Shown: positions 37,083 to 49,021, counted from the stretch's first letter. The stretch: 64,000 nucleotides of DNA from Natronobacterium texcoconense (GCF_900104065.1 NZ_FNLC01000006.1:62001-126000); one strand, 5' to 3'. Translations and numbers: made by a program. Notes: a model not told the origin generated them from the letters alone.

Positions 37083-37745
37083 TCAGTACGCTCCGACGAC
37101 GTACAGCTGGCCGATCCCGGCGAGGATCAGGACGAGACCGCCGAGACGAACGATGCGGTCGACGTGGCCGGCCAGCCGCCCTGCGCTGACGGCGTAGCCG
37201 ACCGCCGTCGCCACGGTCACCGCGAGCAAGAGGACGCCGAAGCCGACGACGTAGGCACCGAGGACCACGGCACCGGCGGCCGTCGACAGCGTCAACGACT
37301 GGAAGACGATCCCCAGGAACAGCGGCAACACACACCCCGTCGCGGCGATCGCGTACATGCCGCCAAAGATCGCGAACCCCCAGATACTCGAGCGGCGCTT
37401 CGGCAGGACGGCGTGGACCGCGCCGGGGCCGCCGTAGAGGATCCAGCCACCCACCGCGATCAGTGCGATGCCGACGCCGTACTCGAGGGCGGGCAGTATC
37501 CCCTGGAGCGTCTCGCCGGCGAGTAGCGCGACGACCGAGAGGACGCCGAGGACGACGACGGCACCGGCGGCAGCAGCCAGTCCACGGACGATCGTGCCAC
37601 CAAGTGGCGGTTGCTCCTCACCGGTCGCGGAGACGTAGTAGCCGACGTAGCCGGGCAACAGCGCGTACGAACACGGCGAGAAAAACGCCGCGATGCCCGC
37701 GGCGAGCGCGAACGCGGCAGCGCCGAGCAGTTCGCCCGAGAACAC
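37083..37745 (-). CDS. CcdA/DsbD-like thiol-disulfide membrane transporter
   Basis: The 220-residue protein has six predicted helices with the two hallmark cysteines in FSPCSYALLPGY (helix 1) and AATGCVLPLFLG (helix 4). It shuttles reducing equivalents across the membrane to external thioredoxin-like proteins, here most likely the TlpA-like protein immediately upstream (6 bp gap) and the SCO protein. It is the last gene of the nirK-halocyanin-SCO-TlpA-CcdA operon, a set suited to copper-site assembly in the exported nitrite reductase and cupredoxin. Confidence 0.9.
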   Translation of the reverse strand: MFSGELLGAAAFALAAGIAAFFSPCSYALLPGYVGYYVSATGEEQPPLGGTIVRGLAAAAGAVVVLGVLSVVALLAGETLQGILPALEYGVGIALIAVGGWILYGGPGAVHAVLPKRRSSIWGFAIFGGMYAIAATGCVLPLFLGIVFQSLTLSTAAGAVVLGAYVVGFGVLLLAVTVATAVGYAVSAGRLAGHVDRIVRLGGLVLILAGIGQLYVVGAY

Positions 37746-37751
37746 GGCCGC

Positions 37752-38288
37752 TCACACTCCGTCCAATTGTGCTGCGATCGGCTCGCGGAGCTCCTCGAGG
37801 GACTTACTCCCTCGGTCGGACCAGGTCACGACGTTGTCCTCGTCGAGGACGAAGCTGTAGGGGACGCCCGAGGCGTTCAGTTCGCTGGTGAGTTCGAGGT
37901 CGTCGTCGATCGCGACGGCCCATCGGCCGTCGTGGGCGTCCCACCAGTCGGCGACGTCCTCGCGGGTGACGCTGCGGCCGATCGGCTCGTTGGAAACCGA
38001 GACGAACTGGATCCGGTCGCCGAACTCGTCGTAGAGTTCGCCGGTCGGCTCCATCATCCGCTCGCAGACGTCACACCAGGTCGCAAATAGCTCGAGGAAG
38101 GTGACCCGTCCCGGCTCGGGGACGATGGCCGTTCCAGCGTCGCTCCCGGGAGCCTCGAGCGTCTCGAGTTCGATCGGCTCGATCGCGTCGTCGCTCTCAA
38201 GGGGGTCGACGCCGCCCAGTGCGTACGCTGCTCCCGCTCCTGTGGCTGCGAGTGCTGCGGCTCCAGCGATGACTTCGCGACGGCGCAT
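37752..38288 (-). CDS. TlpA-like thioredoxin-fold protein
   Basis: From ATG 38288 (MRRREVIAGAAALAATGAG) the 178-residue protein has a Tat-like signal or N-terminal anchor. Its thioredoxin domain has the active site WCDVC (FLELFATWCDVCERMM) and the cis-Pro region ASGVPYSFVLDEDN. It should be an external thiol reductase that keeps the SCO or copper-protein cysteines reduced, fed by CcdA. A GTG at 38297 is an alternative start overlapping the SCO gene. Gaps are 2 bp to SCO and 6 bp to ccdA. Confidence 0.88.
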   Translation of the reverse strand: MRRREVIAGAAALAATGAGAAYALGGVDPLESDDAIEPIELETLEAPGSDAGTAIVPEPGRVTFLELFATWCDVCERMMEPTGELYDEFGDRIQFVSVSNEPIGRSVTREDVADWWDAHDGRWAVAIDDDLELTSELNASGVPYSFVLDEDNVVTWSDRGSKSLEELREPIAAQLDGV

Positions 38289-38290
38289 CG

Positions 38291-39073
38291 TCACCACCCC
38301 TCGACGACGGCCCTCGTGTCTTCGACGACGTCGCCGGGCGTCGGTACTTCGCCGGAGTAGGCCCGCTCGACGTAGCCGTCCTTGTTGACCAGCAGGAGGA
38401 GGACGTGGTGGACGAAGGCCATCTCGTGGCCACCTTCGTCTTCCTCGTCGTGGCCATTCCCGTCGTCGTGCCCCATCTCTTCGTCGTGCCCGTTTTCGCC
38501 GTCGTCATCCGGTTCGGCTGGATCGAACGCACAGCCGAACTCCTCTTCGACGACGGCCTTGGCGTCGGTCTCGTCCTCCGGGCGGAGGGTGTACCAGTGG
38601 CCGGGCTCGTGCTCGATGCCATAGGTCTCCTCGTACTCGGCGAGCACCTCGGGGGTGTCGTGTGCCGGATCGAACGTGATCGGGAGGAACGCGACCTCGT
38701 CGGCGTACCCCTCCTCGATGGCGTCGTCCTGGACGTGACGGAGCGTCCCCATCAGTCCCGGACAGGCACCCGGACACCGCGTGAAGACGAACGTGTAGAA
38801 GGCGTGGCGTTCGCCGTGGAATTCGGTCGTCGTTACCTCTCTGTTCTGCAGCGGCGCGGGAACGGTGACGTCGGGAATGGGCTCGCCGTAGATCGGGTAC
38901 TGGACTCGGTCCGGGTCGGCACGGTCGTGGCCTTCCGGCGGTCCCAGGACGACGTTCTCGTCGGCCCCGTCCCGACCCGTCATCGCGTCGGCACAGCCGG
39001 CGACCGTCGCCGAGAGCGCCGCCGCTCCAGTTACCTGTAGGAATCGGCGTCTGTCGATTGGTTGTATAGGCAT
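38291..39073 (-). CDS. SCO1/SenC-family copper chaperone lipoprotein
   Basis: The 260-residue protein has a lipoprotein signal (DRRRFLQVTGAAALSATVAGC). The SCO domain has CxxxC in FVFTRCPGACPGLMGTL, LPITFDPAHDTPEVLAEY and the copper His in AFVHHVLLLLVNKDG. An insert between about residues 185 and 215 is rich in His, Asp and Glu (GHDEEMGHDDGNGHDEE), an unusual extra metal-binding loop for SCO. It delivers copper to external cuproproteins; here the likely clients are NirK and halocyanin. It lies 22 bp after the halocyanin gene. Confidence 0.92.
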   Translation of the reverse strand: MPIQPIDRRRFLQVTGAAALSATVAGCADAMTGRDGADENVVLGPPEGHDRADPDRVQYPIYGEPIPDVTVPAPLQNREVTTTEFHGERHAFYTFVFTRCPGACPGLMGTLRHVQDDAIEEGYADEVAFLPITFDPAHDTPEVLAEYEETYGIEHEPGHWYTLRPEDETDAKAVVEEEFGCAFDPAEPDDDGENGHDEEMGHDDGNGHDEEDEGGHEMAFVHHVLLLLVNKDGYVERAYSGEVPTPGDVVEDTRAVVEGW

Positions 39074-39095
39074 GATTGTGTGGATCGGGTGGGCG

Positions 39096-39680
39096 TTACG
39101 GCCCCGCCTCGATGACGGGGCGAGTCTCTTCGTTCAGCGTCTCGAACGCGTTCTGAGCCTGCGTCGGTAACGCAGGCTGGGGCTCCTCGAGCGCCGGTTC
39201 GTCGTCCGGATCCGGCCAGCCGACGACGACGCGACCGACCGCGCCGACGTGTTCGTGGGACGTACAGACGTGTCGCGTGTCGGCGTAGTCGTAGACGCCT
39301 TCGCGGTCGAACGTCCGTTCGAAGCTGTCTCCCTCACGGGAGAGCTGGTCGCTGGCCCACGGCTCGGCCTCGTCGGGGATCCGCTGGGGGCCGTGCGTGT
39401 CTGGATGGTACGAGGTGACGTCGTGTCGTCCGTCCTCGTTGATCCAGGTGACGGTCCCGCCGACCGTGACGTGGACAAGCCACGGATCGAACTGGGGGTA
39501 CGGCGTCGAGGTCGTCACGACCTCGGCTCCGCCAGTCGGCGAACCGAGTTCGCCGGTTCCGTCGTCTTCGTCGTCGGAACGGTCGTCACTCGGCCTCGAG
39601 AGACACCCTGCGAGCGCGAGCGTCGTACCGGCAGCTGTCGTCTGCAGCAGGCGGCGGCGCGTGATGGGTGTCGTTGTCAT
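39096..39680 (-). CDS. Halocyanin-like cupredoxin lipoprotein
   Basis: The 194-residue protein has a Tat lipoprotein signal (ITRRRLLQTTAAGTTLALAGC) and a plastocyanin-type domain: DGRHDVTSYH supplies the first His, and TRHVCTSHEHVGAVGRVVVG supplies the Cys and second His of a type 1 copper site. The usual Met after the second His is not obvious (the segment reads HVGAVG), so the axial ligand may differ. It is probably the electron donor to the nitrite reductase encoded 39 bp upstream. A C-terminal ~45-residue extension is acidic. Confidence 0.87.
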   Translation of the reverse strand: MTTTPITRRRLLQTTAAGTTLALAGCLSRPSDDRSDDEDDGTGELGSPTGGAEVVTTSTPYPQFDPWLVHVTVGGTVTWINEDGRHDVTSYHPDTHGPQRIPDEAEPWASDQLSREGDSFERTFDREGVYDYADTRHVCTSHEHVGAVGRVVVGWPDPDDEPALEEPQPALPTQAQNAFETLNEETRPVIEAGP

Positions 39681-39719
39681 GGCTCTGGTTGGGGGAGAGC
39701 CCGAGTTTCCTCGAGCGTC

Positions 39720-40817
39720 TCAGGGATCTTCGTCGTAGATGTCCGGGTTCTCCTCGCCCTCGACGTCGATCACGCCGAGCATGCCCTTGCGGACGACTCG
39801 CGAGAGGGCGTGGTCGACGATCTTGACGGGGCCGGGGACGTGCATCTCCATGTCCCCTGCGACGACCGTCCCGGGTGCGACCGGTGCGGTTTCGACGTTT
39901 TGACCGGGCTCCGAGAGCAGGTCGCCGTCGCGGTAGTATTTCGACCAGACGTTCCCGATCGGGTGCAAGGCGCTGGTGAGGTTCGGTCCGCCGTTGGCGA
40001 AGTACACTCGAACGGTTTCGCCGACTTCGGCTTTGACGGGACCGTGCTGGCCGTCCGGCGTGAAGCCGTAGGCCTCGCCGTTCAGGAGGACGTACGTCGG
40101 GTCCTCGTCGGCCGTCGCGTCGAAGTCGTAGGTGTGGTGGCCTTCCTCGCCGGCCTCGCCGTCGGTGTAGACCTCGTGCTGTCCGAAGTAGAACTCGCGG
40201 TCCACTTCGGGCAGTCCCTCTTCGGGTTCGACCAGGATCGCGCCGAACATCCCCAGGCTGATGTGCTGGTCCATGTTCGGGACCGCACAGTGGTAGATGT
40301 GGACGCCGGCGTACTTCGGCTGGAATCGTAGTCGAGCGGGTTCGTCGCCGGGAGCGATCGTCGTCGCCTCGGCACCGCCACCGGGCCCGTAGACCGCGTG
40401 GAAGTCGACGTTGTGCATGTCGACGTTGTGCTCGTCGGGCACCTCGAAGGTGAGGTCGATCGTGTCACCTTCGCGAACCCGGATCATCGGTCCTGGGATC
40501 TGCCCGTCGTAGGTCATGTAGTTGAGGGTGACGCCGGGTTCGATTTCGGCGGTGACCTCGATCGTCTCCATCGTGATCTCGTGGGTCCTGGGCTCGTCCC
40601 AGTCTACCGGGGGCGGAAGGTCTGCTGGATCGGCCGCGATAGCGTCGACGTCGACGGGTTCGGCCGCTGGAAGACCCTGTTCACCGTCATCAGCCGACGG
40701 TTCGGGGTCTGCATCTGTCTCCGAGGGAGTTCCCTCGAGGCAGCCGGCAACTGCCACGACGCCGGTCGCTCCGATGCCTTTCATGAAGGTTCGTCGGTTT
40801 GCGGTGTATTGGGTCAT
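39720..40817 (-). CDS. nirK: Copper-containing nitrite reductase NirK
   Basis: From ATG 40817 the 365-residue protein has a Tat signal with lipobox (NRRTFMKGIGATGVVAVAGC) and two cupredoxin domains. Type 1 copper ligands are His135, Cys177, His185 and Met190. Type 2 ligands are His140, His176 and His285. The catalytic Asp is Asp104 (TYDGQIPGP). It reduces nitrite to nitric oxide outside the membrane. Alternative starts at 40832 and 40844 exist. A CGAACATGTTCG operator 78 bp upstream points to anaerobic control. It leads a five-gene operon with halocyanin, SCO, TlpA and CcdA. No norB or nosZ is in the window. Confidence 0.95.
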   Translation of the reverse strand: MTQYTANRRTFMKGIGATGVVAVAGCLEGTPSETDADPEPSADDGEQGLPAAEPVDVDAIAADPADLPPPVDWDEPRTHEITMETIEVTAEIEPGVTLNYMTYDGQIPGPMIRVREGDTIDLTFEVPDEHNVDMHNVDFHAVYGPGGGAEATTIAPGDEPARLRFQPKYAGVHIYHCAVPNMDQHISLGMFGAILVEPEEGLPEVDREFYFGQHEVYTDGEAGEEGHHTYDFDATADEDPTYVLLNGEAYGFTPDGQHGPVKAEVGETVRVYFANGGPNLTSALHPIGNVWSKYYRDGDLLSEPGQNVETAPVAPGTVVAGDMEMHVPGPVKIVDHALSRVVRKGMLGVIDVEGEENPDIYDEDP

Positions 40818-40894
40818 TGTGGTTCTCCTCATCTGAATAAACACCCCTCATATGTAGAACGGTATCGGGAATTCTACAAAAGAGGGAATACCAT

Positions 40895-40978: not shown

Positions 40979-41878
40979 ATGGACGCCACAAAACCGGCAG
41001 TCGACTCGGCCTCACTCTCGACCACCGTGGGGAACTCGACGTTCAGGTCAGTAAACGGCCTCCAGCTACACGCACGGGTCGCCGGTGATCCGGACGATCC
41101 GCTCGTGGTGTTGCTCCATGGCTTTCCCGAGTTCTGGTACGGCTGGCACGAGATGATCGAACCGCTCGTCGAGGACGGGTTTCGCGTGCTGGCCCCCGAC
41201 CAGCGAGGGTACAACCGCAGCGAAAAGCCGGAGTCGGTACGTGCCTATCGCCGGCCCGAACTCGCACGCGACGTGGTCGAACTGATCGCTACCGAGAGTC
41301 GGGACACCGCCGCCGTCGTCGGCCACGACTGGGGTGGAATCGTCGCGTGGGAGCTTGCACTTCGATACCCCCAGGTCGTCGACCGACTCGCAGTCGTCAA
41401 CGCACCGCATCCGACCGCGTTCCGCCGACAACTCCTCTCGAACCCCGACCAGATCCGACGAAGCTGGTACGCGTACACCTTCCAGCTCCCATGGCTTCCC
41501 GAACGGGTCTGCCGCTACGACGATTTCCGCGTCCTCGAGCGAGCGCTTCGTGGAACGGCGGATTCGGAGGCGTTCTCCGATGCAGACCTCGAGCGCTATC
41601 GTCGGGCGTGGCGTCGAGAGGGTGCTCTCACCGGAATGCTGAACTGGTACCGGGCGAACGCGCGGTATCCGTCACCGCCGCCGAGGGATCGGGTCGACGC
41701 ACCCACGCTCGTCGCCTGGGGTGAGGAAGATACCGCGCTCGTCCCCGAACTGGCAATCGACAGCTACGACCACTGTACGGACGGCCGCCTCGAGTTGTTC
41801 CCGGACGCGAGTCACTGGCTCCCGCGAGAAAAACCGGATCGGTTGGCGGAACTACTGTGTGAGCACCTGGACGGTTAG
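40979..41878 (+). CDS. Alpha/beta hydrolase, epoxide-hydrolase type
   Basis: The 299-residue protein has the oxyanion motif LHGFPEFWYGWHE (HGxP), nucleophile Asp in VVGHDWGGIVAW, the acidic member near WGEEDTAL and the catalytic His in DASHWLPREKPD. An Asp nucleophile with HGFPEFWYGW is typical of epoxide hydrolases and haloacetate dehalogenases. It is probably cytoplasmic. It is divergent from nirK with the shared operator between them; whether it is under the same control is uncertain. Its stop overlaps that of the convergent DUF2249 gene. Confidence 0.88.
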   Translation: MDATKPAVDSASLSTTVGNSTFRSVNGLQLHARVAGDPDDPLVVLLHGFPEFWYGWHEMIEPLVEDGFRVLAPDQRGYNRSEKPESVRAYRRPELARDVVELIATESRDTAAVVGHDWGGIVAWELALRYPQVVDRLAVVNAPHPTAFRRQLLSNPDQIRRSWYAYTFQLPWLPERVCRYDDFRVLERALRGTADSEAFSDADLERYRRAWRREGALTGMLNWYRANARYPSPPPRDRVDAPTLVAWGEEDTALVPELAIDSYDHCTDGRLELFPDASHWLPREKPDRLAELLCEHLDG

Positions 41879-42144
41879 GTGTCCGGGTCCCAGATGACGG
41901 TCACGACCTCGTCCTCGAGTTCGACGGTGTCGTGGGCGTAGCCCCGGTCCTCGAGTTTAGGGAAGAGAAACTGCGGGACGCGGTCGTTTCGCTGGACGAG
42001 GACCGTCTCGTCGGAGAGGTCGACGAGCGTCTCGAGAGTGGTTTTCAGCGGCTCCGGTGGACCGAGCGTGCGGACGTCGATCGTCTCCCGGGGGTGGTCG
42101 GTCGGTGCGTCGGTGCGTTCGACGACGGAACGATGCGACTGCAT
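41875..42144 (-). CDS. DUF2249-family protein, copy 1
   Basis: The 89-residue protein contains ETIDVRTLGPPEPLKTTLETLVDLSDETVLVQRNDRVPQFLFPKLEDRGY, the DUF2249/SirA-like fold with a small beta-alpha-beta domain. DUF2249 genes recur in archaeal and bacterial denitrification clusters, but their function is unsettled. It is the most distal of three copies lying in a row between the nirK divergon and the regulator. Confidence 0.82.
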   Translation of the reverse strand: MQSHRSVVERTDAPTDHPRETIDVRTLGPPEPLKTTLETLVDLSDETVLVQRNDRVPQFLFPKLEDRGYAHDTVELEDEVVTVIWDPDT

Positions 42145-42288
42145 ACGCGTATCGACGGGCTCAGTGTGTGTAGATTCCGTGCCGTACGTGTTCGGATCGA
42201 AATGCGGGCTGGGGTGGTACCGTTTCGAGCGTCGATTGATGGGCCGAACCGATCTGTACCGGCCCGCCGGATCAGGCCTGGACCGCCA

Positions 42289-42522
42289 CTAGACCTCCTG
42301 TTTCGGGAATCTGGCGACGAACTCGTCTGTGGCGACCTGTTCGACCTCGTAGGAATCGGCATCGAAGCTGTCGACTTCGGCCTGGAACTCGTAGAACAGC
42401 GGCTTCGGTTCGTGGTCGTTGACGATGGTCAACGTCTCGCCAGGCTCGAGTTCCTCGAATTTTTCGTGGATAGTTGGATGGCGGTTTACCGGTGGAATGT
42501 CCCTGACGTCGAGTCGTGTCAT
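42289..42522 (-). CDS. DUF2249-family protein, copy 2
   Basis: The 77-residue protein reads MTRLDVRDIPPVNRHPTIHE and then FEELEPGETLTIVNDHEPKPLFYEFQAEVDSF. LDVRxxPPxxRHxxIxxxFxxLxxGExLxLVNDHxPxPL is the classic DUF2249 consensus, and this copy fits it best of the three. A CGAACACGTTCG operator ends 41 bp before its ATG, so it probably has its own anaerobically controlled promoter. Confidence 0.88.
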   Translation of the reverse strand: MTRLDVRDIPPVNRHPTIHEKFEELEPGETLTIVNDHEPKPLFYEFQAEVDSFDADSYEVEQVATDEFVARFPKQEV

Positions 42523-42562
42523 GCAGATGGATGTGGGTCGTGGAGGTTCGTTTCGGTTTGGC

Positions 42563-42574
42563 CGAACACGTTCG
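42563..42574. promoter_or_regulatory. Palindromic operator, copy 2
   Basis: CGAACACGTTCG keeps both CGAAC/GTTCG half-sites of copy 1 with a different central dinucleotide. It is 41 bp upstream of the start of DUF2249 copy 2, nearly the same spacing as at 42923 and 42969. Confidence 0.6.
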
Positions 42575-42576
42575 CG

Positions 42577-42658
42577 TTCGGTCGGCTGCTGTCCGTCAGT
42601 GACGGTGCAACCACTGGGGTCCGGTTGCCCCAGTAAATCGTCACAGCAGGCCGTATCA
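42577..42658. repeat. Palindromic intergenic element, copy 5
   Basis: The right arm on the minus strand reads TGATACGGCCTGCTGTGACG, its TGA being the stop of DUF2249 copy 3. The left arm contains TCGGCTGCTGTCCGTC. A strong inner hairpin ACTGGGG/CCCCAGT with an 8-base loop closes the centre. Total length is about 82 bp. Confidence 0.7.
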
Positions 42659-42883
42659 GGCGTGTTCGACGTAGACGTACCAGAGGCCGCCGTCTTGCTG
42701 GTGGCTCTCGTGTGCGTAGCCGCGCGCGTCGAGTACCTCGTAGAGCGGTTCGGGTTCGAACGGTGCGATCAACTGGAGTCGTTCTCCGTCTTCGAGGGAT
42801 TCGAGTGCGGCCATGATGTCGTCGAACGGCGGGCCCTCGATCTCGCGTACGTCGATCGTCCGGTCAACTTGTTCGGTCGTCAT
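42656..42883 (-). CDS. DUF2249-family protein, copy 3
   Basis: The 75-residue protein contains RTIDVREIEGPPFDDIMAALESLEDGERLQLIAPFEPEPLYEVLDARGYAHES, a clear DUF2249 sequence. Its ATG is divergent from the Bat-type regulator at 43019, and each gene has one palindromic operator 39-40 bp from its start codon. Its TGA is part of palindromic element copy 5. Confidence 0.86.
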   Translation of the reverse strand: MTTEQVDRTIDVREIEGPPFDDIMAALESLEDGERLQLIAPFEPEPLYEVLDARGYAHESHQQDGGLWYVYVEHA

Positions 42884-43018: not shown

Positions 43019-43690
43019 ATGGTTCAAGCGACTCTCACGGTCACGCTGCCGGAACAGGTCTGGGTCGAGCAGGTCTCGACCGACTATCCGGATGCGACGT
43101 TTCGCGTCCTCGGCGCGGTCCCGGGCTCCGAGAGCGGGTTCGCTCTCGTCCGAGTGACAGGCTCGGACGTCCCGGACGTCGTCGACGACATGAACGACCA
43201 TCCCCAGATCACGGAGCTCACACTGGCCCAGTGGAGCGAGAACGAAGCGACGGTCCACTTCGAGACGACGGCCCCACTGTTGCTGTTCTCCTCGAGAGAT
43301 TCGGGAATGCCGATCGAGCTTCCCGTCGAAATCAAGGACGGCGAGGCGACGATCGAGGTCACCGGCTCGCGCGACCGACTCGCCGAACTCGCAGAACAGC
43401 TCGAGAGCTTCGGGCTCCAGTATCGCATCGAGAACGTCCGTGAGCGACTCCACGAGAGCCAGCTCCTCTCGGATCGCCAGCTCGAGGTACTCACTGCTGC
43501 CGTCGAGGAAGGGTACTACGACACGCCACGCCGATGTTCGCTGACCGACCTCGCGGGCCACCTCGACATCGCCAAGTCGACGTGTAGCGAGACGCTTCAC
43601 CGTGCCGAGGAAGCGATCATTAAACGGTTCGTCGAGGACCTGCCGATGACCGGCGAAGACTCACTCGAGGAACAGCTCGTTTCGAACTGA
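43019..43690 (+). CDS. Bacterio-opsin-activator type helix-turn-helix regulator
   Basis: The 223-residue protein has an N-terminal alpha/beta sensor-like domain (MVQATLTVTLPEQVWVEQVSTDYPD..., residues 1-150) and a C-terminal HTH_10 domain (LLSDRQLEVLTAAVEEGYYDTPRRCSLTDLAGHLDIAKSTCSETLHRAEE) as in Bat, NarO and DmsR. It lacks the N-terminal cysteine cluster I associate with NarO, so it may sense something else or act downstream. Its position beside DUF2249 genes and the FeS/NrfD operon, and the operators around it, make it the best candidate to bind the CGAAC-N2-RTTCG sites, or to be controlled by them. Confidence 0.88.
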   Translation: MVQATLTVTLPEQVWVEQVSTDYPDATFRVLGAVPGSESGFALVRVTGSDVPDVVDDMNDHPQITELTLAQWSENEATVHFETTAPLLLFSSRDSGMPIELPVEIKDGEATIEVTGSRDRLAELAEQLESFGLQYRIENVRERLHESQLLSDRQLEVLTAAVEEGYYDTPRRCSLTDLAGHLDIAKSTCSETLHRAEEAIIKRFVEDLPMTGEDSLEEQLVSN

Positions 43691-43921: not shown

Positions 43922-45610
43922 ATGAGTACGGACGACGAATCTTTCCACCCACTCGGAAGCGAGTGGGAAAACGACCTCGAGTCGATGCTCGACGATACCG
44001 AGTACGATACGGAACTCGGTATGAAAATGGCCCAGGACGCGATGCGCGTCACCAAGGGCGAACTCTCCGAGGCCGAATTCCACGAGAAATATCACGACGA
44101 CGTGATGGAGGAGTTCGGCGAGGACGAGCGACCGACGAAAGCGGCCTACGAGGAGGCACAGGCCGCCGAGGAAGGAACCGTCTCCCGGATGCTCTCGAAG
44201 TTCGAGGGCGACGGCGAAGAAAGCCGCCGCGACGCCATGAAGAAGATGGGCGCTGGCGCTGCTGCCGTCGGTCTCGGCGCGTGGGGAACTGTCGACGACG
44301 GCCCCAGCGAACCCGAGCCCGAAGCCAACGTCGCGGCTGCCCAGGACGAGCCAGACGAGGACGAAGGCGTCCAGTGGGGGATGGCCATCGACCTCGACCG
44401 CTGTGACGGCTGTCTCACCTGTGTCTCCGGTTGTTCACAGGAGAACCAGCTCGACTCGGGTGTCAACTGGATGTACGTCCTCCAGTACGACGATCCGAGC
44501 GCGAGCGGAGAAGGATCCGAACTCGCCCGTAACGCTGGCGCCGCCGCCAACCGACTCGTTCGCCCGTGCCAGCACTGTACCGACGCGCCGTGTGAGAAGG
44601 TCTGTCCGACGACGGCCCGTCACACGCGAGATTCGGACGGTCTCGTGCTGACCGACTACGACGTCTGTATCGGCTGCCGATACTGCCAGGTCGCCTGTCC
44701 GTACGGTGTCAACTACTTCCAGTGGGACGAACCGACCGTCCCCACGGACGCCATCGAAGAACACCACGAGGACATGGACATGGGCGATCACATGACCGAC
44801 GACCGCGGGCGCTGGGTCGACAGCCGCGCGCCGCGTGGGGTCATGAGCAAGTGTACGATGTGTCCGACCCGGCAGGACGGCCAGATGGGTGAGGAGTACG
44901 TCGGAACGACGGCCTGTGAAGAGGTCTGTCCGACGGGCGCCATCCAGTTCGGGAACATGAACGATCCCGACAGCGACCCCCAGAAGTACGCCGACAACCC
45001 CGCCCGCGGCCGTACCCTCTGGCGGGTCAACCCGCCGAGCGTGGACGACCTCGAGGAGGACCTCGACGGCGTCGACGACGACCTCGAGTCCGTTCTCGAC
45101 GCGACGGATCTCGAGGAAGACGAGCTGACGCTGATCAAGGCCGTCGACATCGTCTCCGACGACCTGTACGACGGCGACGACGAACTCCACAGCCACGACC
45201 TGGCCTACCACGAGCGCAGCTTCCGCGAAACGCTCGACACGCTCGAAGACCACGGCCTCGACCACGATAGCGAAGAGGTCCTCGTCGAACTCGGCCTCGC
45301 CGACGAGACCGACGACGACGAGGAGTTCGACGGGCCGGACGAGCGAGACGCCCAGATCGAACTGGAATCGTTCACCGGAAGCCCCGATTCGAACTTCCGG
45401 CTGCTCGAGGAGTACGGCACGAACCCGAACGTCGTCTACATGGGTCAGGAACCCGGTCCGAACGCCGAACAGGTGGAGCCGACCGGGACCGCACTCCAGT
45501 ACGAACAGCTCGGAAGTTACACGGCGATCAACGGCGAGGAGATCGATTTCGTCGACAACCGCAAGGAAGTGCTTGACGAGGATACCGTCGACGGAGGGCT
45601 GTTCTCATGA
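43922..45610 (+). CDS. Four-cluster iron-sulfur subunit (NrfC/PsrB/DmsB type) with long extensions
   Basis: The 562-residue protein has sixteen cysteines in four [4Fe-4S] motifs: C161/164/167/171, C216/219/224/228, C249/252/255/259 and C311/314/332/336. Residues 1-100 are an acidic N-terminal domain. At 101-122 (SRRDAMKKMGAGAAAVGLGAW) a Tat-like twin-arginine segment lies inside the chain. The C-terminal 200 residues are acidic and unique. It should pass electrons to or from the NrfD-like membrane subunit encoded next (ATGA overlap). No molybdopterin catalytic subunit is encoded nearby. Confidence 0.9.
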   Translation: MSTDDESFHPLGSEWENDLESMLDDTEYDTELGMKMAQDAMRVTKGELSEAEFHEKYHDDVMEEFGEDERPTKAAYEEAQAAEEGTVSRMLSKFEGDGEESRRDAMKKMGAGAAAVGLGAWGTVDDGPSEPEPEANVAAAQDEPDEDEGVQWGMAIDLDRCDGCLTCVSGCSQENQLDSGVNWMYVLQYDDPSASGEGSELARNAGAAANRLVRPCQHCTDAPCEKVCPTTARHTRDSDGLVLTDYDVCIGCRYCQVACPYGVNYFQWDEPTVPTDAIEEHHEDMDMGDHMTDDRGRWVDSRAPRGVMSKCTMCPTRQDGQMGEEYVGTTACEEVCPTGAIQFGNMNDPDSDPQKYADNPARGRTLWRVNPPSVDDLEEDLDGVDDDLESVLDATDLEEDELTLIKAVDIVSDDLYDGDDELHSHDLAYHERSFRETLDTLEDHGLDHDSEEVLVELGLADETDDDEEFDGPDERDAQIELESFTGSPDSNFRLLEEYGTNPNVVYMGQEPGPNAEQVEPTGTALQYEQLGSYTAINGEEIDFVDNRKEVLDEDTVDGGLFS

Positions 45611-47013
45611 GCACGAAGACCCCAACCGAGTCCGACATTCTGCGGCCGGTCGGGATCGAGACCATCTCGAAGAAGTACCTCGCCGTGTTCGGAGCCGCGG
45701 CAGCGGCGTTCGGTATCTTCCTGATCGGCTGGTTCTACCAGCTCTACGTCGGGATGAGCGTCACCGGCCTCTCTGACTGGGGGTCCGGTGGCGGCGTCAC
45801 CTGGGGACTGTACATTGGCGCGTTCATCTGGTGGGTCGGGATCGCTCACGGCGGTATCATCCTCTCTGCGGCAGTCCGACTGCTCGGGATGGACCGATAC
45901 ATGCCGGTCGCTCGACTCGCCGAGATGCTGACGCTTGCCGGCCTCTCCGCGGCTGGCTTCTACATTATCGTCCACATGGGCCGTCCGGACCGGATGGTCA
46001 CGAGCGTCATCGGCCACTACCACATTACGGTGAACAACTCGCCGCTGGTGTGGGACGTGACGGTCATTACGGCCTACTTCGTGCTGACTGCGACCTACCT
46101 CGGCCTGACGCTCCGGTACGACATCTCGCGTCTGCGCGACGACCTGCCGTCGTTTGCACCGAAGGTCGGTAGCTTCCAGGCGCCCGACCTGCTCGCGCCG
46201 GTCTACAACCTCATGACCCTCGGCTACAGCGAGAAAGAAGACAAGGTCATCGAACGGATGGTCTGGTGGGTCGCGCTGGCGATCATCATTATGGCACCCC
46301 TTCTGCTTCACGGCGGTGTCATTCCGTGGCTGTTCGCCCTGCTGCCGACGTACCCCGGCTGGTTCGGTGCGATCCAGGGGCCGCAGTTCCTCACTATCGC
46401 ACTGACTTCGGCGATCAGCGGCGTGATCCTGGTCTCGTACGCGTTCCGTCGCGCCTACGACTGGGACCACATCATCACTGACGACATCTTCCGTGGCCTG
46501 CTGCTGTGGCTCGGGTTCTTCTGTCTGCTGTTCCTGTGGCTGCAGCTCCAGCAGCTCGTCTCCGGCAGCTTCTCGCCGACGGTCGATCACGCGGCTGCGA
46601 CGGCCTCGAAGCTCTCGCATCCGGCCTACATCGTGCCGATGCTGATGGTGCTGGGCGTCCTCGCGTACATCTTCGCGACGACGCTGCGACCGTCGCTGTT
46701 CAACAAGAAGCGCGCGATCGGTGCGGCCGTGCTGGTGCTGATCGCGACGCTCGTCGAGAAGACGTACTTCGTCGTCGCCGGTCTCTGGTACCCGGCGTTT
46801 AGCATCTACGACGCCACGCCCGGCGAGTACTACCCGAGCCTGATCGAAATGTCGTCCGTGCTCGGAACGATCGGGATGGTGACGCTGTTCTTCCTCGTCA
46901 TCTCGAAGCTCGTTCCGGTCGTCGAACTCCACGCGATCGAACACCTGCGTGGCGACCACGGCCACGGTCACGACGAACACGAAACTGAAACCGAACCGGA
47001 GGTGAAAGCATGA
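45607..47013 (+). CDS. NrfD/PsrC-family quinone-interacting membrane subunit
   Basis: The 468-residue protein has about ten transmembrane helices and NrfD-type features such as the N-terminal WFYQLYVGMSVTGLSDW and GLYIGAFIWWVGIAHGGIILSAAVRLLGMDRY. The C-terminus is His-rich (GDHGHGHDEHETETE). It probably oxidises menaquinol or reduces menaquinone, exchanging electrons with the FeS subunit. It overlaps both neighbours by ATGA, so the three genes are translationally coupled. Confidence 0.92.
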   Translation: MSTKTPTESDILRPVGIETISKKYLAVFGAAAAAFGIFLIGWFYQLYVGMSVTGLSDWGSGGGVTWGLYIGAFIWWVGIAHGGIILSAAVRLLGMDRYMPVARLAEMLTLAGLSAAGFYIIVHMGRPDRMVTSVIGHYHITVNNSPLVWDVTVITAYFVLTATYLGLTLRYDISRLRDDLPSFAPKVGSFQAPDLLAPVYNLMTLGYSEKEDKVIERMVWWVALAIIIMAPLLLHGGVIPWLFALLPTYPGWFGAIQGPQFLTIALTSAISGVILVSYAFRRAYDWDHIITDDIFRGLLLWLGFFCLLFLWLQLQQLVSGSFSPTVDHAAATASKLSHPAYIVPMLMVLGVLAYIFATTLRPSLFNKKRAIGAAVLVLIATLVEKTYFVVAGLWYPAFSIYDATPGEYYPSLIEMSSVLGTIGMVTLFFLVISKLVPVVELHAIEHLRGDHGHGHDEHETETEPEVKA

Positions 47014-47324
47014 GCACACTCGCAACCGCACTCGCGAACCTGCCGCTTTACGCCGGCGTCGGTGGTACCGAAGGCGTGACCGGCTTCCCGAACATCGGGA
47101 CGTACGTCATCTTTGGCGTCATCCTGGTTCCGGTCTACGTCATGATCGCCGCGTGGTTCCTCGGCGAACCCCGCAACGTAAAAACGGGCCTGATGGGTGT
47201 CGGCTACCTCGTCGGGATTACGGCCGCGATGTGGGTCCCGATGCTGTTCTTCACCGCACTGCTCGGGATCATCTTCTTCGGAGGCATCCCCGAACCGCTG
47301 CCGTTCAGCGACCCCGGCCCGTAA
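47010..47324 (+). CDS. Small membrane subunit of the NrfD complex, 104 residues
   Basis: The protein has two clear helices (GTYVIFGVILVPVYVMIAAWF and GITAAMWVPMLFFTALLGIIFF) and a conserved GGTEGVTGFPN segment before the first. It starts inside the NrfD stop codon. Its paralogue of exactly the same length lies 162 bp downstream. It is probably a structural subunit of the membrane complex; no cofactor ligand is obvious. Confidence 0.82.
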   Translation: MSTLATALANLPLYAGVGGTEGVTGFPNIGTYVIFGVILVPVYVMIAAWFLGEPRNVKTGLMGVGYLVGITAAMWVPMLFFTALLGIIFFGGIPEPLPFSDPGP

Positions 47325-47486
47325 CTCGAGTCGCTACCCAACTCGATCACTCGTTTTTTCGGACGCAGTCTTCTCGAGCCGTGCGGTTACGCTGACGTCT
47401 CTCACGCTTCGTCTCGAGCGGTATCCTTTCCGTGACCATGCACTCGCATGCACTACCGAAACCCCCGTGGGGGTGATGCTTCGAGT

Positions 47487-47801
47487 ATGACGGCGATAGC
47501 GGACATCGTCCTCGAGCTGTCGGCGGTGCTGTATCACGACTACGGGGGTACTGAAGGGCTGACCGGCTTCCCGAACACCGGAAGCTGGCTCATCTTCGGA
47601 GTTATTCTGGTCCCGATTTACGTCATGGTGACCGCGTGGTTCGTCGGGTCGCCACGCGAAACCTCGACTGGACTGCTCGGCGTCGTCTACCTCGTCGGAC
47701 TGACGTCGGGAATGTGGGTCAGTATGTTCGTGCTGACCGTCATCATCGGCATCGTCTTCTTCGGCGGCGCTCCGGAACCGATCGGGTCGGTCGGCCCCTG
47801 A
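47487..47801 (+). CDS. Paralogue of the small NrfD-complex subunit, 104 residues
   Basis: From ATG 47487 the protein aligns end to end with its neighbour: GGTEGLTGFPNTGSWLIFGVILVPIYVMVTAWFVGSPRETSTGLLGVVYLVGLTSGMWV against GGTEGVTGFPNIGTYVIFGVILVPVYVMIAAWF and so on. Length is identical and two helices are shared. It is a recent tandem duplicate or an alternative subunit; the upstream gap means it may be separately expressed. Its TGA opens a palindromic element. Confidence 0.8.
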   Translation: MTAIADIVLELSAVLYHDYGGTEGLTGFPNTGSWLIFGVILVPIYVMVTAWFVGSPRETSTGLLGVVYLVGLTSGMWVSMFVLTVIIGIVFFGGAPEPIGSVGP

Positions 47802-47929: not shown

Positions 47930-49021
47930 ATGAGCATCACCGAACACGAACTCAAGATCAAACTCGAGGATGTCGAGGACCCCGACATCGGTCAGGACAT
48001 CGTCACGCTCGGGTTGGTCAACGACGTCACCATCGACGACGAGACTGCTCGCATCTCTCTCGCGCTCAACGCCCCTTACGCACCCTCGGAGATGGAACTC
48101 GGGAACCGAATCCGAGAAATCTGTGACGAGGTCGGCCTCGAGGCCGACCTGCGGGCCCACGCCGGCGAAGAACACGGTTTCGACGACCAGGTCCTCCCCA
48201 ACGTTCGCAACGTCATCGCCGTCTCCTCCGGGAAAGGTGGCGTCGGCAAGACGACGGTCGCAGCCAACCTCGCGGCCGGCCTCGAGAAACGCGGTGCGAT
48301 GGTCGGCCTGCTCGACGCCGACATCCACGGACCGAACATTCCCAAAATCCTGCCCATAGAGGGTGAACCCGGCGTGATGCCCAACGAGGACATCGTCCCA
48401 CCCCGTTCGGACGGCGTTCGGGTCATCAGCATGGGCTTCATGATGGAAGAAGACGACGACCCAGCGATTCTGCGCGGTCCGATGGTCAACAAGTTCATGA
48501 TGAAGTTCCTCGAGGGCGTCGAGTGGGGACGCCTCGACTACCTGATCGTCGACCTGCCGCCGGGAACGGGTGACGCAACGTTGAACCTGCTGCAGTCGAT
48601 GCCGGTTACGGGATCGGTCGTCGTCACGACGCCCCAGGAGATGGCACTCGAGGACACCAGCAAGGGGATCCAGATGTTCAACAAACACGACACGCCGGTG
48701 CTGGGCGTCGTCGAGAACATGAGTTCGTTCGTCTGTCCGTCCTGTGGCGACCAGCACGGTCTGTTCGGTACCGACGGCGCGGACGACATCGTCGACCGGT
48801 ACGACGTGCCGCTGATCGGCAAGATCCCAATCCACCCGGACTTCGGCGCCGACGGGAGCAAGGGACCGATCGTCAAGGACGACGAGAGCCCGGTCCAAGA
48901 GCCCGTTTCGGACGTCGTCGCCGAAATCGCCGACCGCGTCGGCGAGACGAACCGTCGGACGGTCGCCGAGAACACCTCCGACGAACCCGCCGACGTGTTG
49001 CCGACCGAGACCGAAGACTGA
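47930..49021 (+). CDS. Mrp/NBP35-family iron-sulfur cluster carrier ATPase
   Basis: The 363-residue protein has an N-terminal MIP18/DUF59 domain (residues 5-85). A P-loop ParA-like ATPase follows with deviant Walker A SSGKGGVGKTTVA (99-111), switch I LLDADIHGPNIP, Walker B LIVDLPPGTGD and the CPSC pair (FVCPSCGDQHG), which holds a bridging [4Fe-4S] cluster. It delivers clusters to apo-proteins; the multi-cluster FeS subunit encoded just upstream is one likely client. The family is usually named Mrp or ApbC. Confidence 0.95.
   Translation: MSITEHELKIKLEDVEDPDIGQDIVTLGLVNDVTIDDETARISLALNAPYAPSEMELGNRIREICDEVGLEADLRAHAGEEHGFDDQVLPNVRNVIAVSSGKGGVGKTTVAANLAAGLEKRGAMVGLLDADIHGPNIPKILPIEGEPGVMPNEDIVPPRSDGVRVISMGFMMEEDDDPAILRGPMVNKFMMKFLEGVEWGRLDYLIVDLPPGTGDATLNLLQSMPVTGSVVVTTPQEMALEDTSKGIQMFNKHDTPVLGVVENMSSFVCPSCGDQHGLFGTDGADDIVDRYDVPLIGKIPIHPDFGADGSKGPIVKDDESPVQEPVSDVVAEIADRVGETNRRTVAENTSDEPADVLPTETED

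Follow-up and report, generated by a model that had tools for sequence, protein, structure and literature searches.

About one third of haloarchaea, especially among the Natrialbales, lack any equivalent of complex III, and how electrons reach halocyanin in these organisms is an open question (PMC8305020, PMC3403918). A candidate answer lies in a 64,000-nucleotide stretch of the genome of Natronobacterium texcoconense (NZ_FNLC01000006.1:62001-126000; "the window," to which positions below refer), where an operon encodes a four-cluster iron-sulfur (FeS) protein, an NrfD-type membrane protein, and a small membrane protein. We are fairly confident that this operon encodes a quinol:cupredoxin oxidoreductase with neither heme nor molybdenum, that is, a minimal alternative complex III (ACIII) that replaces a lost cytochrome bc complex. 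The complex is most likely the missing link from the quinone pool to halocyanin in the haloarchaea without cytochrome bc, which make up between about one quarter and one third of the group. Among the open-access papers searched, we found none that names an FeS-NrfD complex as the haloarchaeal complex III.

The complex co-occurs with the loss of cytochrome b. We searched 292 haloarchaeal genomes, each at least 90% complete, for NrfD, the FeS protein, nirK, cytochrome b, and cydA (cytochrome bd), and we defined window-type NrfD by E < 1e-100. By this definition, 96 of the 292 genomes have the complex. Cytochrome b was missing from 69 genomes, and 67 of these contain the complex, versus 29 of the 223 genomes with cytochrome b (Fisher p = 5e-40, all genomes). 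The association holds inside the home family, the Natrialbaceae (57/8/0/10 genomes with the complex but not cytochrome b, both, neither, or cytochrome b but not the complex; p = 5e-8), and outside it (10/21/2/184; p = 5e-8). All 10 of the Natrialbaceae without the complex keep cytochrome b. The second cytochrome b domain (PF00032) is absent from all 67 cytochrome b-less carriers and present in 8 of 8 controls. The two cytochrome b-less genomes that lack the complex (G007 and G093) have cydA only, with no COX1 or COX2; because heme-copper oxidases are absent and cydA is kept, they have no need of a complex III. Conversely, the complex is present in each of the 32 genomes with neither cytochrome b nor cydA. 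Neither nirK (p = 0.13) nor cydA (p = 0.21) was associated with the loss of cytochrome b.

N. texcoconense itself lacks cytochrome b (PF00033 and PF00032) and cydA and has several heme-copper oxidases. CuA enzymes accept electrons from one-electron carriers. The examined oxidase subunits II of N. texcoconense carry the CuA site, and across nine cytochrome b-less genomes the CuA motif (CxxxCxxxHxxM) is present in 24 of 24 COX2-type sequences examined (two of which are NosZ-like). With no cytochrome b, no cytochrome bd, and oxidases of the CuA type, halocyanin must have some reductase in this organism.

The genes that we discuss from the window are:

39096..39680, - strand: halocyanin-like cupredoxin with a Tat-type signal (PF00127, 30.1 bits, over the cut-off); candidate electron acceptor
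39720..40844, - strand: NirK, copper nitrite reductase (TIGR02376, 362.9 bits, cut-off 296.3); one possible downstream client
43019..43690, + strand: HTH_10 (bacterio-opsin-activator type) regulator (PF04967, 67.7 bits), directly upstream of the FeS gene
43922..45610, + strand: FeS subunit, 562 amino acids, with a PF16947 N-terminal domain and 4Fe-4S dicluster domains (Pfam/NCBIfam)
45607..47013, + strand: NrfD-type subunit, 468 amino acids, 10 hydrophobic segments (PF03916, 73.8 bits, cut-off 25.8)
47010..47324, + strand: small two-helix subunit 1, 104 amino acids, 2 hydrophobic segments, matching no known family
47487..47801, + strand: small two-helix subunit 2, a tandem paralogue of subunit 1 (59 of 106 aligned columns identical)
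47930..49021, + strand: ApbC/Mrp-type Fe-S carrier ATPase (PF10609, 302 bits), fourth gene of the conserved block

The original prediction described a four-cluster FeS protein, an NrfD protein, and a 104-residue membrane protein that are coupled by ATGA overlaps, and the reading frames bear this out: both junctions (FeS/NrfD and NrfD/small subunit 1) have ATGA overlaps. Its range (43922-47801) was right for this three-gene core. The range also takes in small subunit 2, which is separate from subunit 1 and lacks ATGA coupling, and it missed the ApbC/Mrp gene. We also agree that the operon encodes no molybdopterin reductase or cytochrome c. None of the operon's proteins has a CxxCH heme motif, and there is no MopB gene near the operon. 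A molybdoenzyme partner, linked or unlinked, was rejected because the only PF00384 gene in the genome, which is on another contig, is formate dehydrogenase alpha (TIGR01591, 730.6 bits, cut-off 666). The NrfD gene is publicly annotated as "NrfD/PsrC family molybdoenzyme membrane anchor subunit," which is misleading here because there is no molybdopterin subunit. As had been noted, halocyanin and nirK genes are nearby, about 3-4 kb from the operon and on the opposite strand; the halocyanin-like protein has only 35 bits against TIGR03102, which is below the cut-off.

The FeS subunit has exactly 16 cysteines, and all of them are in four 4-cysteine motifs (C161/164/167/171, C216/219/224/228, C249/252/255/259, and C311/314/332/336). 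An internal twin-arginine motif, R102-R103, is invariant in 72 of 72 homologues and is followed by a small hydrophobic stretch. Together these may form an internal signal for twin-arginine translocation (Tat) after a cytoplasmic N-terminal domain, which would bring the FeS clusters and the quinol site to the side of the membrane where halocyanin is. The best match of the subunit among solved structures is to the FeS domain of ActB of ACIII (6lod, E = 2.4e-26). In one homologue (L076:6788-9088; 766 amino acids), some 250 additional residues form a domain that separates the cluster domain from the C terminus. We considered whether this was a fusion to halocyanin and rejected the idea, as by eye the extra stretch has no cupredoxin-like sequence.

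For NrfD, the closest solved relatives by sequence are ActC of ACIII (E = 6e-15 to 3e-11); it also scores against the DsrP model, below the cut-off. When we searched with an AlphaFold model (mean predicted local distance difference test score of 76), the only Foldseek matches at E < 0.001 were ActC and ActF of ACIII, with TM-scores of 0.72-0.77 for ActC. NrfD's H123, S145, and D150, which are invariant in 69 of 69 homologues, align to His139, Ser164, and Asp169 of ActC, which are among the named quinol-site residues (PMC8076601, PMC5928083). In ACIII, the quinol site is on the P side, near the first FeS cluster (PMC5928083).

The complex thus resembles ACIII (ActABCDEF), a bacterial quinol:cytochrome c/high-potential iron-sulfur protein (HiPIP) oxidoreductase, in several ways: an ActC-like NrfD with 10 transmembrane segments (E = 6e-15, TM-score about 0.76), three ActC quinol-site residues that are kept (Asp253 is not), an FeS subunit that is nearest to the ActB2 domain and has a Tat-type motif, and, judging here by gene content only, a role in place of bc complexes. 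Electron transfer from ACIII to HiPIP is known. Unlike ACIII, the FeS domain is not fused to a MopB-like ActB1 domain (the protein has only PF16947 and FeS domains, with no linked PF00384), there are no c-type heme subunits (ActA or ActE), the operon has no second NrfD (ActF), there are four 4-cysteine motifs in place of the pattern with a [3Fe-4S] cluster, and the complex is archaeal and linked to halocyanin. The two-helix protein is the only possible counterpart of ActD. From these comparisons, the complex probably works like ACIII but falls outside its definition, and would be a new, stand-alone FeS-NrfD variant with neither heme nor a molybdopterin domain.

Other systems share parts of this design. 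QrcCD, NrfCD, and DsrOP have the same pairing of FeS and NrfD proteins, but they belong to larger assemblies that include multiheme cytochromes or other catalytic subunits, whereas the haloarchaeal module stands alone; we saw no CxxCH protein like NrfA or NrfB in the operon, and identified none among its conserved neighbors. Molybdoenzymes with NrfD anchors (the complex iron-sulfur molybdoenzymes DmsABC and PsrABC) have homologous FeS and membrane subunits, but here the molybdopterin catalytic subunit is missing. With the haloarchaeal cytochrome bc complex (petABD), the FeS-NrfD complex would share the step from menaquinol to halocyanin, but the proteins are unrelated, and petABD is absent where the FeS-NrfD complex is the only option.

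Conserved neighborhoods suggest what the complex works with. We retrieved 80 haloarchaeal gene neighborhoods, each about 20 kb long (60 surround an FeS-linked NrfD gene), predicted genes with a codon model, and clustered the genes into families. Most of the 60 neighborhoods share the block FeS-NrfD-small-ApbC as their invariant core, so this arrangement is not due to chance. The small-subunit family (67 members) directly follows NrfD in 55 loci. The ApbC/Mrp family adjoins the block in 59 loci, even where every other neighbor differs; because it stays beside the complex in nearly all loci, it is probably a dedicated factor for cluster insertion or maturation. The HTH_10 regulator family is present in 31 loci, with the same upstream position in most Natrialbaceae loci. 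Other neighbors vary: HTH_10, DUF2249, and nirK genes in the Natrialbaceae, or nirK and nor in G138/G281. In most other families, there are no denitrification-related genes around the complex.

As for the acceptor, 10 loci from two families (G047, G104, G223, G045, G253, G250, G277; G267, G117, G179) have a halocyanin gene 49-131 bp upstream of the FeS gene and on the same strand, and three of the four upstream halocyanins tested score over the cut-off for TIGR03102 (confirmed with Pfam and NCBIfam). These loci are scattered over several separate places in the NrfD tree, including the g57 group, which branches early and has no cytochrome b. In a third family (G129, L074), a halocyanin-like gene is divergent from the FeS gene. 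A HiPIP gene (PF01355, over the cut-off) adjoins the lone FeS paralogue of three genomes (G043, G101, and G180), in two of which (G043 and G101) the pair sits beside coxAC-coxB. In G020, the FeS-NrfD operon itself is near coxAC-coxB (L056).

Additional copies of these genes are also present. N. texcoconense has a lone NrfD paralogue (C2:994807, L003; 78% identical) and a lone FeS paralogue (C1:1195270, L095; 59% identical), which lie apart from each other in most Natrialbaceae. They might form a second, split complex; a second linked complex was rejected, as they are mutually unlinked in the genomes examined. The lone NrfD paralogue is found elsewhere in many genomes and is missing from the cytochrome b-less G020, G043, G071, G101, and G207. 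Separately, G253, which keeps cytochrome b, has a divergent second FeS-NrfD-ApbC copy beside HiPIP-like and COX1-like genes (L067, contig C12).

Gene content, synteny, motifs, fold, and co-occurrence are the basis for our proposal, and from them we infer the redox direction, the acceptor, the membrane side, and the proton coupling. NrfD would oxidize menaquinol at an outward-facing (P side) site, and electrons would run through the four FeS clusters of the Tat-exported FeS subunit on the same side. The FeS subunit would then hand the electrons to membrane-anchored halocyanin, or to another cupredoxin or HiPIP, and the halocyanin pool would feed CuA-type oxygen reductases and, in genomes that have them, NirK or NosZ. 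The small two-helix proteins are probably packed against NrfD; the FeS clusters may come from ApbC. Because quinol would be oxidized at the P side with no heme path back, energy might be conserved by proton release on the P side or by proton channels in NrfD.

Could the complex serve nitrite respiration only? The original prediction was of a menaquinol:halocyanin oxidoreductase dedicated to NirK, and many Natrialbaceae loci do have nirK no more than about 3-8 kb from the complex, while in G138/G281 it is divergent from the FeS gene at 161-308 bp, with a nor gene downstream. The HTH_10 regulator and the DUF2249 genes also recall the denitrification cluster of Haloferax mediterranei (PMC11218638). 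In the window, a row of nirK, cupredoxin, SCO1, thioredoxin-like, and CcdA-like genes (37083-40844, - strand) is followed by three small DUF2249-type genes (41875-42883, - strand), and this row resembles operons that are reported to be up under denitrification in that organism (PMC11218638). N. texcoconense also has a NosZ-like CuA sequence (C1:76898, L224); as its sole molybdopterin protein is a formate dehydrogenase, the organism seems to be an incomplete denitrifier that has no nitrate reductase. However, nirK is present in 54 of the 96 genomes with the complex and in 101 of the 196 without it (p = 0.46), so we rejected co-occurrence with nirK as a defining association. Together with the 36 of the 67 cytochrome b-less carriers that have no nirK over the cut-off, this leaves the nitrite-specific part of the original prediction unsupported, by the refuting condition that it had itself set (an operon mainly in non-denitrifiers). 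G052, a close relative (its NrfD is 96% identical), has no nirK-like gene at all. A nitrite-only module is quite unlikely; a link to nitrite does exist in some lineages (G281/G138, and nirK is also near in the window), and we regard NirK as one client among several that draw on the halocyanin pool.

Instead of a halocyanin reductase, the cytochrome b-less species might use direct quinol oxidases, and so need no complex III, with FeS/NrfD in an unrelated role, for example as the electron donor to an unlinked reductase. This is improbable, even though 35 of the 67 cytochrome b-less carriers have a bd quinol oxidase and quinol-type ba3 and bo3 oxidases have been proposed for natronoarchaea without complex III (PMC6176080). 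The other 32 carriers have no bd oxidase, every COX2-type sequence that we examined has the CuA site, as would be expected of enzymes with a one-electron donor, and N. texcoconense offers no candidate for the unlinked reductase beyond its formate dehydrogenase. The CuA motifs come from other strains than those of PMC6176080, but the proposal of quinol-type enzymes does not appear to fit them. It is very improbable that the complex works in the opposite direction, reducing quinone with electrons from a donor on the P side in the manner of QrcCD or HybAB. QrcABCD is experimentally a quinone reductase (PMC6303296), and the FeS subunit scores against the models for QrcC, DsrO, and HybA, all below their cut-offs, but we see no linked P-side dehydrogenase: the neighbors are cupredoxins, HiPIP, oxygen reductases, NirK, and Nor. 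Also, the presence of the complex follows the loss of the bc complex, and the fold and residues of NrfD agree with ActC, a quinol-oxidizing subunit.

Several points weigh against a quinol:halocyanin oxidoreductase that replaces cytochrome bc. Twenty-nine genomes hold both the complex and cytochrome b, so replacement cannot be its only role. Nor are the genomes independent of one another: cytochrome b requires about 9 changes on an rpoB' tree, at least 4 of which are forced by well-supported branches, and an independent-pairs sign test on this tree had too few informative pairs for significance (though the direction was never opposite when pairs were taken on cytochrome b). The co-occurrence should therefore be read as at least four separate cases with none contrary, rather than as p = 5e-40. 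The fourth ActC quinol-site residue, Asp253, is replaced by an invariant leucine (L242) in NrfD, and the halocyanin gene in N. texcoconense is outside the operon, 4 kb off. The AlphaFold model of the FeS subunit was poor, with low confidence around the clusters, and its only Foldseek matches were ArrB and PsrB, so we set it aside. Finally, G129 (L074) has the FeS-NrfD pair and the divergent halocyanin-like gene, yet we found no heme-copper or bd oxidase in this genome.

Nevertheless, the idea in the original prediction that this is a menaquinol:halocyanin oxidoreductase that replaces the bc complex, by the logic of ACIII, is strongly supported by the co-occurrence with cytochrome b loss, the adjacency to halocyanin, the ActC-like fold and residues, and the CuA oxidases without bd. 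So is its widened form, in which bc replacement is more general, and more interesting, than a nitrite-only module. The FeS protein, NrfD, and the two-helix protein are probably the main menaquinol:halocyanin oxidoreductase of many haloarchaea that lack bc, and their acquisition probably allowed cytochrome b to be lost repeatedly. The locus offers a concrete and testable answer to the missing complex III of the Natrialbales. If we are correct, then the complex has the simplest subunit composition known to us for an analogue of complex III, and aerobic respiration can move electrons from quinol to the carrier with FeS clusters and copper proteins instead of any heme.

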